Below are positions 10,231-19,015 of a DNA stretch of 64,000 nt, piece after piece. The DNA is from Flavobacterium sp. (lineage in GTDB: Bacteria > Bacteroidota > Bacteroidia > Flavobacteriales > Flavobacteriaceae). The stretch spans positions 1 to 64,000 of the forward strand of contig JADFAM010000009.1 of the NCBI GenBank assembly GCA_015665265.1, in the 5' to 3' direction. The first letter of the stretch is position 1. Each line of letters opens with the position of its first letter. The position numbers and the translations under genes are program-made. The notes below the pieces were generated by a model that worked only from the letters and a program-made list of their open reading frames with translations, had not been told where the DNA came from and ran no database searches.

Positions 10231-11271
10231 TTATTTCACCTTTTTCATGGTAAATGAAAATTCAGATCCTTTTTTAAAAGTGCTATTAATGAGCACCGTT
10301 TCATTATGAGCTTCAACTATATGTTTAACAATAGATAAGCCTAATCCAGATCCTCCCTGTTCTCTAGATCTACTTTGATCAACTCTATAAAAACGTTCAA
10401 ATAAACGAGAGATATGTTCTTCTTTAATTCCTTCTCCGTTATCAACAACTTTAATAATAAATTTCTTTTCGTCAAAAGATTCAATACCTACACTGGTTAA
10501 TCCATTCAATTTTCCGTATTTAATTGAGTTTACAATTAAATTGATAAGAACTTGCTCAATTCGCTCTTTATCTCCATTTACAAATACCGGATAATCATAA
10601 ACTTTATCGAATTGTAGTGTAATATTTCTTTTTTTAGCTTTCATTTCAAATAAATCAAATACATTCTGAATGAGATCGATAATATTAAAAACTTCATAAT
10701 TCATCTTCAACCCTTCAGTTTCTAATTTTGCAATCATATCTAAATCTTTTACAATAGCAACCAATCTGTCAACACCTTTGTTAGCTCTTTCTAGGTACTT
10801 ATCTCTTATCAATTTATCATTTATTCCTCCCTCAATGAGTGTCAAAATATAGCCTTGAACTGTAAAAAGAGGTGTTTTTAATTCATGAGATACATTTCCT
10901 AAAAAGTCTTTTCTAAAAGAATCTCGTTCTGTAAGATTTTTAATTTCAATTCTTTTACCCTGAACATAATTTTTAACACTATTGGATAAAGAATCTATAT
11001 CTGAAGTTGTTGAGGCTCTTATAAATTCATCATCATTTAGGATGGAAACTTCATCATATATTTTTTTTATTCTGTTGTAAATGAATCGTTCAGTTCTAAA
11101 TTGAATTATAAAAAAAGAAATTATAAATATTGCGGGAAAAAAAACAAGAATACTAAGTAACTTTTTTTCTTCGGAGGAAAGAAAATAAACGAGCGCAAAA
11201 GTTAATACAATAGAAATAGTAAGGTATACTGATGATAATAGAGAAAAAGAGTATGTCTTTTTTAGCTTCAT
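10231..11271 (-). CDS. Sensor histidine kinase (PhoR-like)
   Basis: Two N-terminal TM segments, FLGNVSHELKTPLFTVQGYI (H box), NLIVNSIKYG (N), DNGEGIKEEHISRLFERFYRVDQSRSREQGGSGLGLSIVKHIVEAHN (G/F boxes). Confidence 0.93.
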   Translation of the reverse strand: MKLKKTYSFSLLSSVYLTISIVLTFALVYFLSSEEKKLLSILVFFPAIFIISFFIIQFRTERFIYNRIKKIYDEVSILNDDEFIRASTTSDIDSLSNSVKNYVQGKRIEIKNLTERDSFRKDFLGNVSHELKTPLFTVQGYILTLIEGGINDKLIRDKYLERANKGVDRLVAIVKDLDMIAKLETEGLKMNYEVFNIIDLIQNVFDLFEMKAKKRNITLQFDKVYDYPVFVNGDKERIEQVLINLIVNSIKYGKLNGLTSVGIESFDEKKFIIKVVDNGEGIKEEHISRLFERFYRVDQSRSREQGGSGLGLSIVKHIVEAHNETVLINSTFKKGSEFSFTMKKVK

Positions 11272-11283
11272 AAGTAGTTCAAC

Positions 11284-11982
11284 TTATTTATCTTCAATAT
11301 CAATTACAAATTTATAACCAACTCCTTTTATGGTTTTAAAATGATTGTCTCCAATTTTTTCTCTCAATTTTCTGATATGAACATCAATAGTCCTTCCACC
11401 AACTACCACCTCATTTCCCCAAACACTGTCTAAAATAGTTTCTCTTTTAAAGACTTTTCCTGGTTTAGAGGTTAGTAAAGAGAACAACTCAAATTCTTTT
11501 CTAGGCAAAAATATTTTTTTATCACCTTTAAAAATCAAATACTCGTCTCTGTTAATGGTAATATTACCTATTTTTACAGAAGAATCCTCTTGACTTTCAG
11601 CTTTTAACCTTCTTAAAAGTGATTTTACTTTGCTAATTAAAACTTTTGGTTTTATAGGTTTAGTAATATAATCATCAGCACCTGCATCAAAACCAGCAAC
11701 TTGAGAGTAATCTTCATTTCTGGCTGTTAGAAAGGCTATTAAAGTATTTTCTAGACTTTTTATTGCTCTTATTTTTTCACAAGTTTCAATGCCATCCATT
11801 TCTGGCATCATAATGTCTAGTAAAATTAAATTTGGAGTGATTTTTTTTGCTGACTTTAGAGCTTCAAGGCCATTGTTTGCTGTGTAAACTTGATATCCTT
11901 CATTTTTTAAATTGTACCCTACAATTTCTAATATATCAGGTTCGTCGTCAACTAAAAGAATTTTAACATCACGTTTGTTCAT
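11284..11982 (-). CDS. OmpR/PhoB-family response regulator
   Basis: Receiver domain (VDDEPDILEIVGYNL, LLDIMMPEMDGIE, DAGADDYITKPIKP) plus winged helix (VVGGRTIDVHIRKLREKIGDNHFKTIKGVGYKF). Confidence 0.95.
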   Translation of the reverse strand: MNKRDVKILLVDDEPDILEIVGYNLKNEGYQVYTANNGLEALKSAKKITPNLILLDIMMPEMDGIETCEKIRAIKSLENTLIAFLTARNEDYSQVAGFDAGADDYITKPIKPKVLISKVKSLLRRLKAESQEDSSVKIGNITINRDEYLIFKGDKKIFLPRKEFELFSLLTSKPGKVFKRETILDSVWGNEVVVGGRTIDVHIRKLREKIGDNHFKTIKGVGYKFVIDIEDK

Positions 11983-12041
11983 AATTATTTTATAAATAAG
12001 GTTATACCAAAAATAGCGAATCTAAACTAAATACCAGTTGC

Positions 12042-12120
12042 TTAACAATCATTTAACCCTGTAACATTCAATTAACATTGCTCTAACCTAACAGTAATAA
12101 ACCTCTAACCTTTACTTTAC
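12042..12120 (+). promoter_or_regulatory. Array of 11-bp-phased TAAC direct repeats (Pho-box-like)
   Basis: TAAC-type tetramers at 12043, 12054, then 12062, 12073, 12084, 12095 (TAAT), 12106, 12117 (TTAC): the last six are exactly 11 bp apart. Last unit starts 14 bp upstream of CAATTTTG (12131-12138). Confidence 0.75.
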
Positions 12121-12163
12121 AAAATAGCGTCAATTTTGCATAAAATTATAATAAGAACATTCA

Positions 12164-14980
12164 ATGAAAAATTTTTTAATTGTTTTTGCTCTATTCATTT
12201 GTCAAATGATGTTTGCACAAGGTAAGGGTGTAATTAAAGGTCAATTGTTAGACAAGGAAATGGATAATGAGCCTCTCTCTTTTGCTAGTGTTTTTCTAAA
12301 AGGAACTATTATTGGTACAGAAACAGATTTAGATGGAAACTTCATGTTATCTGTTGATTCTGGAGACTATATTTTAGTATTCGACTTTTTAGGATACAAG
12401 ACATTAGAGGTTCCAGTATCGGTTAAGGTAGGAGAAACAGTCATAATTAACAAAATATTAGAAGCTGCGGAAGGAGTAGCTCTTGAGGAGGTCAAACTAA
12501 AAGTAAGTATAAGTAAACAAAAAGAAAGTGCTTTATTAATGGCCCAACAAAAGGCGGTTACAATAGATCAAAAAATTGGAGTAGAAGAGTTAAGTAAAAA
12601 AGGGGTTAGTAATGTAGCCACCGCCTTAACTAAAACTACAGGAATCAGTAAGCAACAGGGATCTGGAGTTATTTTTGTTAGAGGTCTTGGAGATCGATAT
12701 AATGTTACCACGTTAAATGGATTGCCACTTCCCTCAAACAATCCTTCAAATAAAAATATTGATTTAAATATTTTCTCAACAGATATCATTGAGTTCATTT
12801 CAATAGATAAAACGTTTAATCCAAAAAACTTTGGAGATTTTAGCGGGGCAAACGTAGACATTTCATCAAAAAAATATACAGGAAAAGGGTTTTTTGAAAT
12901 AGCAATTGGTTCCGGTATAAATTCAGAAGCAAATTCTCAAGATACATTTTATTTAAATGATGGACCAAACACGTCAGGGTTCTATGATATTGGAATTCCT
13001 TCTTTCCCTTTAAATAATTATAATTTTAACACTAGTTGGAATAGAACAGAGTCTAATGCTCCTATCAATAAAAGTGTATCAATAAAATTAGGAGATTCAT
13101 ATGAATTAGGTGAAGAGACTAAATTAAGTGTATTTGGTGTGGCATCATTTGATAGTGGATTTAAATTTAATGAAGGAATTTCACGCGGAAGTGTTAATAC
13201 ATCTGGAGTAGCAAGGAGAGATTATGATTTTCTAAGATATGCATACGAAACCAATACTACCGCTATGGGTAATCTAAGATTAAAGCATAAAGCCCATGAG
13301 ATAAAGTACAACGCCTTAATGATAAATACTTCAAGTCAAAAGCAAGAAGAGTATTCAGGGATTCACGATGTTTTTGATTATGCTCCAGAAGGAGGAGCCT
13401 TTTTACAAAGAGCTGTTTTTGATAGAACAGAACTCTTTGTACATCAATTATTAGGTACTCACAAACTAGCTCAAAACATAGATATAAACTGGGGAGGAGC
13501 ATATAATTATGTTAAAAGTTCAACGCCTAATAGAAGACAATATTTATTAACACCAGACGATTGGAATATCCCTGAAGGACCGAAGTCATTTAAAGAAACC
13601 TTAAATGATTCAGACAACCATAAATTATTTCTTGATATAGAAGAGGAGGAGTTAGCGGCTAATTTTTCTGCAATGTATAAATTCAAAAAGAATGCTGATG
13701 ATGATTATTTAGGGAAATTTACTCTAGGATACAGCGGAAGGTATAAAAGTGTAGACTTTGAAGCTACTCAATTTAATTTTAGAATAAACAACAGTGGTGG
13801 AAGTGCTGCTGTACAACCCATCATTTCAGATATTTACGATTTAGATAGTTATTTTAATCAAGATAACTTCACCAATGGATTATTTGATATTAGAACTTTT
13901 AGAGGAGGATTAGGAACAGGAATCGATGTTTTATTGCCACAATCTTATGGTGGTCGTCAAGATATTCATGCGGGTTTTACAACACTTGAGTATGCTTTTT
14001 CGTCAAAATTTACTGCAATTTTTGGGCTTAGAGTTGAGCAAATTAATCAAACATTAAATTTTAATACCTCGCTTACTTCTGGGTTTAATGAACTTGATCA
14101 AACAGAGGTACTTCCCTCAGCATCATTTAAATATGAACTTAATGAACAACAAAATTTAAAGTTAGCATTAAGTAAAACCTACACCTTACCTCAGTTTAAA
14201 GAAAGAGCACCTTTTCAATATGATGAAACGCCAACCTTATCAACTATAGGTAACCCTGCTTTATATACATCAACAAACTATAATTTTGATCTTAAATGGG
14301 ATTTCTTTCCTAAATCAGAAGAAATAATTTCAGTTGGAGTTTTTTCTAGATTCATTAACGATCCAATTAATAAAATAACCATAAACTCTGCTTCTAACGA
14401 TGTTAGTTGGGTAAACTCTGGAGATCAAGCCACTGCTTTTGGAGCAGAGTTAGAACTAAGAAAAAATTTCTTTGTAAGAGAGCTAGATACTGAAGATAAA
14501 GTGTTAAAAACTAAACTTTCTGGGGGGCTAAATATCTCATATTTAAATACAAATCAAGACTTGAGTCAAGAGAAGGTTATTAATGAAACCTCAGCTGCTG
14601 GGTTTCCATTAAGTGTAGATTTTTCTTTCTCAGAAAGTGCCTTAACGGGTGCGTCAGAGTTGTTATTAAATGCAGATATTTCATATTTGAAAGAATACAA
14701 GGAGCATAAAAGTATTCAAGGAACGCTATCATTTAATTACTTTTCAGATAGAATTTTTGCGTTAGCAACTGAAGCAGGAAGAGGAAATATTATGGATTCT
14801 GGTATTCCAACTTTAGATTTTATACTAAAAGCAAAACTTAACAAACATCTTGGTATAGGATTGTCTGCGAAAAATATTTTAAACCCTACTATTAAAAGAA
14901 CTCAGGAAGTTCAAGATGTTATTGTCTCATCTTTTAAAGTTGGGTCAAATATTAAATTATCGTTATCCTATAACTTTTAA
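12164..14980 (+). CDS. TonB-dependent receptor with carboxypeptidase-regulatory-like N-terminal domain
   Basis: Signal peptide; GVIKGQLLDKEMDNEPLSFASVFLKGTIIGTETDLDGNFML; plug region GVIFVRGLGDRYNVTTLNGLPLPSNNP; C-terminal beta strand ending in F. Confidence 0.93.
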   Translation: MKNFLIVFALFICQMMFAQGKGVIKGQLLDKEMDNEPLSFASVFLKGTIIGTETDLDGNFMLSVDSGDYILVFDFLGYKTLEVPVSVKVGETVIINKILEAAEGVALEEVKLKVSISKQKESALLMAQQKAVTIDQKIGVEELSKKGVSNVATALTKTTGISKQQGSGVIFVRGLGDRYNVTTLNGLPLPSNNPSNKNIDLNIFSTDIIEFISIDKTFNPKNFGDFSGANVDISSKKYTGKGFFEIAIGSGINSEANSQDTFYLNDGPNTSGFYDIGIPSFPLNNYNFNTSWNRTESNAPINKSVSIKLGDSYELGEETKLSVFGVASFDSGFKFNEGISRGSVNTSGVARRDYDFLRYAYETNTTAMGNLRLKHKAHEIKYNALMINTSSQKQEEYSGIHDVFDYAPEGGAFLQRAVFDRTELFVHQLLGTHKLAQNIDINWGGAYNYVKSSTPNRRQYLLTPDDWNIPEGPKSFKETLNDSDNHKLFLDIEEEELAANFSAMYKFKKNADDDYLGKFTLGYSGRYKSVDFEATQFNFRINNSGGSAAVQPIISDIYDLDSYFNQDNFTNGLFDIRTFRGGLGTGIDVLLPQSYGGRQDIHAGFTTLEYAFSSKFTAIFGLRVEQINQTLNFNTSLTSGFNELDQTEVLPSASFKYELNEQQNLKLALSKTYTLPQFKERAPFQYDETPTLSTIGNPALYTSTNYNFDLKWDFFPKSEEIISVGVFSRFINDPINKITINSASNDVSWVNSGDQATAFGAELELRKNFFVRELDTEDKVLKTKLSGGLNISYLNTNQDLSQEKVINETSAAGFPLSVDFSFSESALTGASELLLNADISYLKEYKEHKSIQGTLSFNYFSDRIFALATEAGRGNIMDSGIPTLDFILKAKLNKHLGIGLSAKNILNPTIKRTQEVQDVIVSSFKVGSNIKLSLSYNF

Positions 14981-15030
14981 TTAACATAGCATTAACCAAG
15001 CAATAATTTTTAAGCAATATCTAATTAACA
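14970..15030 (+). promoter_or_regulatory. Second array of 11-bp-phased TAAC direct repeats (Pho-box-like)
   Basis: Tetramers at 14971 TAAC, 14982 TAAC, 14993 TAAC, 15004 TAAT, 15015 CAAT, 15026 TAAC, all 11 bp apart; the last starts 14 bp upstream of TTAATTTG (15040-15047). Overlaps the stop of the upstream TonB receptor gene. Confidence 0.7.
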
Positions 15031-15077
15031 TGTTGTCAGTTAATTTGTATCAAATAAAATTATAAAAAATATTAAAA

Positions 15078-16262
15078 ATGAAAAAACAATTATTTACAGT
15101 ATTAATTACAGCACTTACCATTGTATTTGTGGTCTCATGTAAAGATGACGATGACGTTAATACTACACAACCAACCTGTTTTGATGGAATTCAAAATGGT
15201 GATGAAACTGGAGTAGATTGTGGAGGGTCTTCATGTCAGGATTGTGTAACTACTACATTATCTGGAGATGTTTTTGATAACATTACTTTAGATGCTTCTT
15301 TAGAATATGAATTAACGGGTGCTTATACTATTATGGACGGAGCTAGTCTTACCATACCAGCTGGAACTGTAATAAAAGCAACCGGAGGTACTGCCTCGTA
15401 TATTGCTGTTGCCCAAGGAGGTCAAATTTTCATCAACGGAACTTCTAGTAGTCCAGTAGTGTTAACTTCAGGGTCAGATAATCCAGCAGCTGCAGACTGG
15501 GGAGGATTGGTTGTTTGTGGAAAAGCGCCTACAAATGTTGGTTCTACAGCAACTTCTGAAGTTGCAGATTTAACCTATGGAGGTAGTGTTTCTGATGACA
15601 ATTCAGGATCTATCCGATACCTAAGATTAGAATACACTGGAGCAACATTCAATAGCTCAAAAGAATTTAATGGACTTTCACTATTTGGGGTAGGTTCGGG
15701 AACCACTGTAGAATACGTTCAATCTTTTGAAGGAGGAGATGATGGTATAGAATTCTTTGGAGGAACTGTAAACGGAAAATATTTGGTATCTACCAATTCA
15801 GGAGATGACTCTATAGACTTTGCAGATGGTTGGTCAGGTACTGGAGAATATTGGTATATTTCTGGAGGAGCCAAAGCCGGTATTGAAGGTTCTAATAATG
15901 GAGATAATGGAGATGCAGCCCCTGTAACAAATGCTACCTTAAGTAATATTACGGTAGTAGGTCCTGTCACAGAAGGAGCACTATACTTCAAAGAAGGAGG
16001 AGGAAACTTTACGATAGACAATTTCTACACCGATGGGATTAACTTAGGAGTAAAAGTTAAGAGTACAGATGCTGAAGCTGCTGTAAGAATTGAAGCAGGA
16101 AATTTAGTGATGACAAATGTTGAATTTGCAAACAGTGCAACAGGTTTTGTCATTACAGATTATACAGGAGCAAATCAAAGTTTTGTAACTGAAGGAACTA
16201 CTACTGGTGCAGGAAATGGAGTAGATGTTCCAGATTGGGCAACAGGTTGGACTCGTTTTTAA
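15078..16262 (+). CDS. Secreted lipoprotein, function unknown
   Basis: MKKQLFTVLITALTIVFVVSCKDDDD lipobox followed by CFDGIQNGDETGVDCGGSSCQDC motif; glycine-rich beta-type repeat sequence. Confidence 0.8.
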   Translation: MKKQLFTVLITALTIVFVVSCKDDDDVNTTQPTCFDGIQNGDETGVDCGGSSCQDCVTTTLSGDVFDNITLDASLEYELTGAYTIMDGASLTIPAGTVIKATGGTASYIAVAQGGQIFINGTSSSPVVLTSGSDNPAAADWGGLVVCGKAPTNVGSTATSEVADLTYGGSVSDDNSGSIRYLRLEYTGATFNSSKEFNGLSLFGVGSGTTVEYVQSFEGGDDGIEFFGGTVNGKYLVSTNSGDDSIDFADGWSGTGEYWYISGGAKAGIEGSNNGDNGDAAPVTNATLSNITVVGPVTEGALYFKEGGGNFTIDNFYTDGINLGVKVKSTDAEAAVRIEAGNLVMTNVEFANSATGFVITDYTGANQSFVTEGTTTGAGNGVDVPDWATGWTRF

Positions 16263-16289
16263 TAAACTAGTATTTTTGAATTTGAATTT

Positions 16290-16319
16290 AAAAGCAGACT
16301 TAAAAAGTCTGCTTTTTTG
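16290..16319 (+). terminator. Rho-independent terminator
   Basis: AAAGCAGACT-TAAAA-AGTCTGCTTTTTT directly downstream of the lipoprotein gene. Confidence 0.85.
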
Positions 16320-16408
16320 TTTTATTAACGATATTTTAATTTGACACAAACATTAATTGATAGATATTTTATATATTTAAGGATTACAATTTTATAAAAC
16401 CTAATAGT

Positions 16409-18217
16409 ATGAAAAAAAATTACTTTTTAACTTTAATATTTACGCTATTTATATCAGGACTTTCTTTTGGGCAGGTTATTAATGAATTTCAACCAAATGC
16501 TAATGGTACAGATCCTGATCCAGCAAGCTTCGAATTAAAAGGAACACCCGGTGCTTCCTTCTCTGGATGGATATTGAGTGTTGAAAGTGATCCTGGATCA
16601 CAAGGAACTATTGACAGAGCTTCTTCAGTAACAGGTACTTTTGACAATAACGGATTACTTGTAGTAACAGCTCCTGATTTGGAAAATCCGTCTTTTACAC
16701 TAATTTTAGTTGACGATTTTACAGGCGTAATAGGGTCAACAGATATTGATACCGATAATGATGGTACAGCTGATGATGTTAGTAGCTGGACTACAGTATT
16801 TGATGCTATTGGAATACCTGACAATACTGGAGATGAAGCATTTCTTTATGCTGATGAAATAGGCGGAACTGATTTTTCTTATTCAGGTGATGAGCCTAAA
16901 TTGGTTTTCAGAGATGGTACTTCTGGGGATTTATATGCGGTTAATGACCCTGATAATAGTGAGGTTTATGATGTGAATGGAACAGAAATTGTTGCTTTGG
17001 GATCTTTTGATACCTCGCCATACGATCCAACATTTGGTTCATTAAACCCAACATATACACTAGCGACGGGTCCTGTTATTTTAACAGGAAATTTAAGTGG
17101 TAATCTTAGTTATGAATCTGGTAGTGGTCCTTCAACTGAAGGCACATTTACTGTTGAAGGAACCAATTTAACTAACGATATTCTTCTATCTTCACCATCA
17201 GATTTTGAAATCTCTGAAACTTCGCAAGGCACTTTTTCATCGTCAATTAGTTTGTCTGAAGGCGGTACAGGCTCAATTTCTGAAACAACAATTTATGTAA
17301 GACTTAAAGCAAGTTTAGCAATAGACGATTATTCGGGTGATATTACTATCACAAGTACTGGTGCGGATACAAAAACTATTTCTCTTTCTGGAAGTGTTTA
17401 TGCACCACCTTCAAATAGTTTAGTTATTACAGGTGCCTATGACGGTCCTCTGTCAGGGGGGACTCCAAAAGGAATAGAACTATATGTTGTAGAGGATATT
17501 ACAGATTTAAGCATTTACGGAATAAGCTCTGTTTCAAATGGAGGTGGATCTTCAGCAGGTTTTGTGGAATATAACTTTCCGGCTGATGCAGTAATTGCAG
17601 GAACATACATTTATCTTGCTACCGAATCTACTCAGTTCAACACATTTTTTGGAATTGATCCAACATACGTTAATGGAGTTGTTAGTATTAACGGAGACGA
17701 CTCTATAGAATTATATGAAGGTGGCGCAATAATTGATACTTTTGGAACCGTTGATTGTGACCCTAATGCATCTGGCACAACATGTCCTGAATGGGAACAT
17801 ACGGATGGTTGGGCATATAGAAATGACGGTACTGGGCCAGAGGGTACTACATTTACAATATCTAATTGGACCTACAGCGGTGCAGATGCACTTGATGGGG
17901 AATCAGATAATGCATCTGCAACTACCCCATTTCCGATGGGAACCTATTCAAATGCAACAGCTTCAACGTCTAATAATACAATAACTGGGTTTAATGCTTA
18001 TCCAAATCCAGTGAAAGGGAATAGTTTAACGGTAACCACTTCTAGTACAGAAGCAAAAACAGTAAATATATTTAATGTATTGGGTAGAAAAGTATTTAGC
18101 CAGCGTTTTTCTTCAATGAACAAAACAATGGATATTTCTGGAATTTCTTCTGGAGTATACATTATGAAAGTTTCTGAAGGAAATAATATTGCTACTAAAA
18201 AATTGATTATTGAATAA
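16409..18217 (+). CDS. T9SS type A sorting domain-containing secreted protein (lamin-tail-like segments)
   Basis: Signal peptide; VINEFQPNANG... lamin-tail-like start; C-terminal NAYPNPVKGNSLTV...VNIFNVLGRKVF...MDISGISSGVYIMKVSEGNNIATKKLIIE is a canonical T9SS type A CTD. Confidence 0.9.
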   Translation: MKKNYFLTLIFTLFISGLSFGQVINEFQPNANGTDPDPASFELKGTPGASFSGWILSVESDPGSQGTIDRASSVTGTFDNNGLLVVTAPDLENPSFTLILVDDFTGVIGSTDIDTDNDGTADDVSSWTTVFDAIGIPDNTGDEAFLYADEIGGTDFSYSGDEPKLVFRDGTSGDLYAVNDPDNSEVYDVNGTEIVALGSFDTSPYDPTFGSLNPTYTLATGPVILTGNLSGNLSYESGSGPSTEGTFTVEGTNLTNDILLSSPSDFEISETSQGTFSSSISLSEGGTGSISETTIYVRLKASLAIDDYSGDITITSTGADTKTISLSGSVYAPPSNSLVITGAYDGPLSGGTPKGIELYVVEDITDLSIYGISSVSNGGGSSAGFVEYNFPADAVIAGTYIYLATESTQFNTFFGIDPTYVNGVVSINGDDSIELYEGGAIIDTFGTVDCDPNASGTTCPEWEHTDGWAYRNDGTGPEGTTFTISNWTYSGADALDGESDNASATTPFPMGTYSNATASTSNNTITGFNAYPNPVKGNSLTVTTSSTEAKTVNIFNVLGRKVFSQRFSSMNKTMDISGISSGVYIMKVSEGNNIATKKLIIE

Positions 18218-18298: not shown

Positions 18299-19015
18299 AT
18301 GAACTTGAAAACAAAAATGAACAATGTCTTATTCTTAGATATTGAAACAGTACCGCAACAAGAGAATTGGTCTGAGGTGCCGGAAACAATCCAAGAGTTA
18401 TTTTCCAAAAAAACTGCTTATCAACGTAAAGAAGAGTTTACCGCTGAAGATTTTTATGAACGTGCCGGAATATGGGCAGAGTTTGGGAAAATTATCTGTA
18501 TTTCTGTAGCGTATTTCACCAATAATAAGCAAGAAAGAAATTTACGAGTTACCTCTTTTAGTGGAGACAATGAAGAACAAATTTTATTGGACTTTAAAAA
18601 ACTATTGGACACACATTTTAATAAATCGTATCATGTATTGTGTGCTCATAACGGGAAAGAATTTGATTTTCCTTACATCGCTAGAAGAATGATTGTACAT
18701 CACATAGAATTACCCTCAAAATTAAATTTATTTGGTAAAAAACCTTGGGAAGTGCCTCATTTAGATACTATGGAATTATGGAAGTTTGGAGATTTTAAAC
18801 ACTATAGTTCTTTGCAATTATTAACCACCATTTTAGGGATACCATCACCAAAAGATGACATAGATGGCAGTGAGGTAGCCTCTGTGTATTATAAAGAAAA
18901 AAACTTAGACAGAATTGTTCGTTATTGCGAGAAAGATACAATCTCTGTGGCACAAGTATTAATGAGATTTAACAATGAAAAATTAATTAATAAAGATGAA
19001 ATTATAAAAGTTTAG
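18299..19015 (+). CDS. 3'-5' exonuclease (PolB-type/RNase H-like)
   Basis: VLFLDIETVPQ, HNGKEFDFPYIARRM, YCEKDTISVAQVLMRF exonuclease motifs. Confidence 0.85.
   Translation: MNLKTKMNNVLFLDIETVPQQENWSEVPETIQELFSKKTAYQRKEEFTAEDFYERAGIWAEFGKIICISVAYFTNNKQERNLRVTSFSGDNEEQILLDFKKLLDTHFNKSYHVLCAHNGKEFDFPYIARRMIVHHIELPSKLNLFGKKPWEVPHLDTMELWKFGDFKHYSSLQLLTTILGIPSPKDDIDGSEVASVYYKEKNLDRIVRYCEKDTISVAQVLMRFNNEKLINKDEIIKV

Follow-up and report, generated by a model that had tools for sequence, protein, structure and literature searches.

The region between a putative phosphate regulator gene and a divergently transcribed TonB-dependent receptor gene in a marine flavobacterium (Flavobacterium sp., assembly GCA_015665265.1; genome 2.37 Mb) contains a long run of TAAC-type tetramers, and raises the question of whether this run is an operator, and if so, which gene it serves and to what signal it responds. 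The window analysed here is a 64,000-nucleotide stretch, the first of contig JADFAM010000009.1, and its relevant features are collected in Table 1. Six tetramers (TAAC at 12062, 12073 and 12084, TAAT at 12095, TAAC at 12106 and TTAC at 12117) are spaced by exactly 11 bp throughout, or about one helix turn, and span 12062-12120. The last unit ends at 12120 and is followed, after 14 nt, by TTTGC (12135-12139), which overlaps the -7-like octamer CAATTTTG (12131-12138). A preliminary description of the region had already given these six positions, the 14-bp distance to a -7-like element and an OmpR/PhoB-type regulator gene beside the array on the opposite strand, and all of these are confirmed. 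The -7 element belongs to the TAnnTTTG type, a consensus documented in F. psychrophilum (PMC9723704). A generic sigma-70 scan gave nothing above chance, as is expected since the promoter is of the Bacteroidota type.

Table 1. Features of the receptor locus, in order of position in the window (R1 is the promoter model described in the text)
Feature	Position	Strand	Remarks
PhoR-like sensor histidine kinase	10231-11271	-	HisKA and HATPase_c domains
PhoB-like OmpR-family response regulator	11284-11982	-	Response_reg and Trans_reg_C domains
Regulator -7 element TATTTTTG (CAAAAATA on the + strand)	12008-12015	-	TAnnTTTG type
Two-unit box CTTAACAATCATTTAAC	about 12041-12057	-	Assigned to the regulator promoter; CTTAACAATCATTTAA given for 12041-12056
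Array 1, six predicted 11-bp Pho-box units	12061-12126	+	Best R1 match in the genome
-7 element CAATTTTGC	12131-12139	+	Bacteroidota TAnnTTTG type; TTTGC distance near-constant in homologous promoters
TonB-dependent outer-membrane receptor	12164-14980	+	Plug, barrel and CarboxypepD_reg domains
Array 2, six 11-bp units	14970-15035	+	25/28 matches; second-best R1 match, E=0.0039
TTTGT -7-like element	15044-15048	+	14 nt past the last array 2 unit
Lipoprotein gene	15078-16262	+	Next gene after array 2
T9SS-secreted protein, downstream neighbour	16409-18217	+	Por_Secre_tail domain

On a 28-point match scale composed of six TAAC tetramers and TTTG at +14, array 1 scores 26, and a second array in the window, array 2, scores 25. 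The preliminary description had proposed a comparison with shuffled sequence, and this comparison supports the array: in 60 dinucleotide-shuffled versions of the 64-kb window, the top score per shuffle ranges from 18 to 21, and the next-best places in the window after the two arrays score at most 21. A search of the 2.37-Mb genome for the strict pattern TAACN7TAACN7TAAC gives three matches: array 1, one at 14971 and one inside a coding sequence on contig 21, which is treated as a chance occurrence. When one mismatch was allowed, the short pattern TAACN6TTTACN14TTTGC proved too weak to separate a regulon from noise and was set aside.

Array 2, which the preliminary description missed, is equivalent in design to array 1. 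Its cores (TAAC at 14971, 14982 and 14993, TAAT at 15004, CAAT at 15015 and TAAC at 15026) span 14971-15029 and overlap the 3' end of the receptor gene. Array 1 is predicted to control the receptor gene and array 2 the lipoprotein gene. The lipoprotein has no Pfam or NCBIfam match, and its gene adjoins the receptor gene in nearly all of 30 homologous loci examined. No array of its own was seen at the T9SS-secreted protein gene. The entire block of receptor, lipoprotein and T9SS-secreted protein genes (12164-18217) is missing in some congeners (L014, L023 and L034), in which the regulator gene lies close to a 3'-5' exonuclease-like gene; in the window, that gene follows the block (18299-19015).

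Conservation was assessed across the Flavobacteriaceae, where receptor homologues were found in 141 of 250 genomes; the upstream DNA of 130 of these homologues formed the sample. A model consisting of six units and TTTGC exceeds the 99th percentile of shuffles in 127 of the 130 orthologous promoters, and the 11-bp register, whose conservation had earlier been named as a test of the array, is thus preserved. TAAC-TAAC spacings of 11, 22, 33 and 44 were counted 187, 64, 171 and 121 times in the 130 promoters, with other spacings typically found 1-13 times and spacing 11 on the reverse strand three times. Extra peaks at 19, 30, 41 and 52 stem from the box of the regulator. The consensus reads aTAACATTtAg cTAACntTtTt aTnACnnAtnT TTAAccTnnag nTAACatnnnc TTTACA, with TTTGC (within gTTTCTTTGC) 14 nt further on; units 1, 2, 5 and 6 stand out as the strongest and unit 3 as the weakest. 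The TAAC cores show 87% pairwise identity and TTTGC 95%, against 40% for the linkers and 33% for the upstream flank. The array is kept (score of at least 21) in 34/34 promoters that have a divergent regulator gene no more than 600 nt away, as well as in 93/96 promoters that do not, and it therefore belongs to the receptor promoter and not to the regulator. The regulator loci of those Bacteroidales relatives that have weak receptor and lipoprotein matches (L336, L339 and L349) gave no match to a position weight matrix; therefore, the claim made here is limited to the Flavobacteriaceae.

A different assignment is favored for the two TTAAC units to the left of array 1. The preliminary description treated 12042-12138 as a single array, with two upstream units in an 11-bp register of their own. 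That register is real (TAAC at 12043 and 12054, 11 bp apart) and the six-unit portion stands, but the left pair, which is 8 bp out of register with array 1 (12054 to 12062), is assigned to the regulator's own promoter on the opposite strand; service to that promoter would also explain its separate register. With small variations allowed, the pair occurs upstream of the regulator gene in 28 of 30 cases from the genus, also where the receptor gene is missing, and a CAAAnnTA element (TAnnTTTG on the regulator strand) is present in all 30. The exact pair is found in 27/34 regulator-adjacent receptor promoters versus 7/96 non-adjacent ones. These distributions are consistent with autoregulation.

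The regulator itself, a protein with a receiver domain and a winged-helix DNA-binding domain, has PhoB TIGR02154 (207 bits; cut-off 296.2) and NF053854 (204; cut-off 270) as its two best-scoring NCBIfam families, although it falls under the curated PhoB cut-offs of both. Its DNA-binding domain matches the E. coli PhoB chains 1gxp and 3t72 (E about 5e-14), and its closest counterparts among named relatives are found in Tenacibaculum, which places the flavobacterium behind the window near that genus. The best NCBIfam matches of the neighboring kinase are PnpS/PhoR models, also under cut-off, and no extra Pfam sensor domain was detected in it. The genome encodes two more OmpR-type DNA-binding regulators, three in all, and both of the others have RprY as their best match; in the genus, 39 of 40 genomes carry a close orthologue of the regulator described here.

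The link to phosphate comes from the genes at which similar elements are found. R1, a sequence-only model built solely from 48 receptor promoters, was used to scan 17 whole genomes. Its three best matches in the genome under study are array 1 (E 1.8e-8), array 2 (E 0.0039) and a weak match (E 0.04) at position 534 of contig 40, immediately 5' of the gene for a phosphate-selective porin (Porin_O_P), after which comes a PHO4-family phosphate transporter gene. This porin/PHO4 operon (L391:534-4126) is preceded by a box like the arrays but shorter. Given that neither pstB nor pstC has a match in the genome, this is probably its main phosphate uptake operon, and the Pst transporter expected of a canonical Pst-PhoU-PhoBR system is thus not found there. 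There is likewise no pstB match in 11 congeners, and no pstC match in 235 of the 250 family genomes searched. In those scanned genomes that do have pst genes, R1 matches the porin promoter or the pstS promoter of the pst cluster in six of six cases (G042, with two sites, G071, G096, G170, G099 and G281; E 1.3e-4 to 0.03). A two-unit model at the 14-nt distance is matched at 12/14 or better in 23/30 OprP porin promoters versus 9/600 shuffles. Receptor and porin genes are at most 10 kb apart in 48 of 67 genomes, and the receptor gene lies beside pstSCAB-phoU in five. A further strong R1 match is associated with a calcineurin-like phosphoesterase, a member of the Pfam family (PF12850) that is also listed for PlcP, a phospholipase that acts in lipid remodelling and is induced in F. 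johnsoniae (PMC8115612).

Both pst and phoX had been named in the preliminary description as genes at which to look for such arrays. The pst genes are supported by the matches above, but phoX is not claimed as a regulon member: no box was found at phoX promoters in the genome under study, and none that is convincing in most of seven others. The PhoX phosphatase gene of this genome, on contig 18 (L409), has no recognisable Pho box upstream. In Flavobacterium panici, the whole-genome R1 scan returned only the receptor match at E<=0.1, and many low-phosphate genes in that species must therefore use shorter or other sites. Two additional observations concern the wider set of loci. In the porin promoters (L431-L460), the transcript start is unusually conserved across genera, with TTTGC and then nGCGACAAAAACTAATA, and this conservation extends beyond the promoter itself. 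In one genome (G080, L146), pstSCAB-phoU, receptor, lipoprotein and phoB-phoR genes occur in a single gene run, with no array above threshold.

Three properties expected of a Pho box, namely 11-bp direct repeats, a fixed place just 5' of the -7 element and presence at phosphate-acquisition genes, are all observed here, and the architecture of the array, its conservation and its association with phosphate genes can be read directly from the genomes. Array 1 is very probably the phosphate-starvation operator-promoter of the receptor gene in Flavobacteriaceae and the target of the PhoB-like regulator whose gene diverges from it. The Pho-box-like reading first offered for the region thus gains from the register preserved in the family, from the element shared by pst, OprP-porin and PHO4 promoters, and from the phosphate response of the corresponding cluster in F. 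johnsoniae (PMC8115612). That cluster (Fjoh_0543 to Fjoh_0546) likewise has the order phoR-phoB, TonB-dependent receptor, lipoprotein, and this gene arrangement recurs in Flavobacterium luminosum, F. agrisoli, F. panici and others, where the array separates phoB from the receptor gene. Under low phosphate, the log2 changes in F. johnsoniae are 0.8 for PhoR (Fjoh_0543), 3.1 for PhoB (Fjoh_0544), 8.0 for the receptor (Fjoh_0545) and 9.9 for the lipoprotein FII (Fjoh_0546), the last of which occupies the same position as the lipoprotein in the window (PMC8115612). The correspondence between our receptor and Fjoh_0545 is based on synteny in other Flavobacterium genomes rather than on alignment, and low-phosphate induction of the present locus is suggested by analogy with this relative. 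The terms "Pho box" and "promoter" are absent from the main text of the F. johnsoniae study (PMC8115612).

Comparison with better known operators places the element within a familiar kind. The Pho box of E. coli shares 11-bp direct repeats for a PhoB-family regulator just 5' of a -10-type element (PMC1906773); however, its core is of the CTGT type, whereas a TAAC/TTAAC core and a Bacteroidota -7 element are found here, and, unlike in E. coli, six units form one run at both promoters in the window. For the cyanobacterial regulator SphR, the binding site comprises three or more tandem CTTAACCT repeats separated by 3-bp linkers (PMC1906773). These 8-bp TTAAC-type repeats are the nearest to the array in sequence, in agreement with the likeness drawn in the preliminary description, but they belong to another phylum, and the flavobacterial element adds six units and a fixed 14 nt to TTTGC. 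Closer in lineage is PhoP of Riemerella anatipestifer, likewise a PhoB/PhoP-like regulator of the Flavobacteriales, for which TTTAACA represents the most conserved motif letters in DAP-seq, with many sites bound, and which in EMSA binds both the promoter of its own gene and that of a TonB receptor (PMC9603813). A TTTAACA-like binding preference at the array is suggested by analogy with this presumed counterpart. In the portion of the Riemerella account available, phased six-unit arrays, phosphate control and the -7 distance do not appear (PMC9603813). We consider the element, from its sequence, to be a long and conserved flavobacterial version of the Pho box and not a new kind of system; the conserved six-unit architecture appears to be undescribed in the open literature searched.

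The Riemerella work is also the source of the main rival explanation, according to which the regulator binds the array but governs a wider response to do with the envelope, redox state or virulence, with phosphate genes as one part of its regulon. Those studies link the regulator to aerotolerance and virulence (PMC5399024, PMC9603813), read the PhoP targets as aerotolerance and membrane genes (PMC9603813) and report an 8-fold rise of pstS when both genes are mutated (PMC9603813, PMC5399024). The lack of pstB matches in the genus genomes tested and of an extra Pfam sensor domain in the kinase would also fit such a role. We nonetheless regard it as unlikely, since the high genome-wide scores fall on the phosphate porin, PHO4, pstS, the receptor and lipoprotein genes and the calcineurin-like phosphoesterase. 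In F. johnsoniae, moreover, the receptor and lipoprotein loci respond to phosphate, and uncharacterised low-phosphate loci are described as tightly repressed under nitrogen and iron limitation (PMC8115612).

It might also be argued that another OmpR-family regulator binds the repeats and that the adjacent one is a bystander, given that adjacency is evidently unneeded in the 93 of 96 receptor promoters that keep the array without a regulator gene nearby. This is distinctly improbable in view of the small choice of candidates, the two others in the genome being RprY-like, of the near-universal presence of a close orthologue in the genus and of the same TTAA-type 11-bp pair in the regulator's own promoter across the genus. 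Helically phased A-tracts can bend DNA, and the region is AT-rich, so a periodicity of chance or compositional origin, in the sense of a helical phase or curved DNA that serves no specific protein, deserves mention as well. Yet shuffles fall short of the array score, the TAAC core, including its C, is far better conserved than the linkers, and the distance to TTTGC is fixed; given this conservation, such an origin is very unlikely and can hardly be credited.

If array 1 is a phosphate operator, as we favor, a plausible mechanism can be outlined. Under phosphate limitation, the PhoR-like kinase would phosphorylate the PhoB-like regulator, which would then bind the six 11-bp TAAC units head-to-tail, in the simplest case as three adjacent dimers that together cover 66 bp. 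The last bound subunit would come to lie near the -7 element and would occupy the segment in which a -33 element is expected to function; with the last unit 14 nt from TTTGC, the bound protein would therefore be expected to recruit RNA polymerase in a class-II-like activation. Binding at the array, its dependence on phosphorylation, the oligomeric state and activation rather than repression are all points that we infer. In the same way, array 2 would drive the lipoprotein gene, the shorter box would drive the distant porin/PHO4 operon, and the left pair would serve the regulator's own promoter. A more tentative and somewhat doubtful extension is that the six-unit operator needs three side-by-side PhoB-like dimers and thereby provides a steep phosphate switch for receptor/lipoprotein uptake in Pst-less Flavobacteriaceae, with the conserved 19-bp offset to the regulator box coupling it to autoregulation.

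Flavobacteria rank among the major degraders of organic matter, and the control of phosphate scavenging matters in a family in which pstC is unmatched in most genomes. The array ties the TonB receptor/lipoprotein pair to phosphate and is a ready candidate for a low-phosphate-inducible promoter. With both its consensus and its distance to the -7 element defined, the conserved operator may allow sequence-based prediction of the Pho regulon in more than 100 genera.
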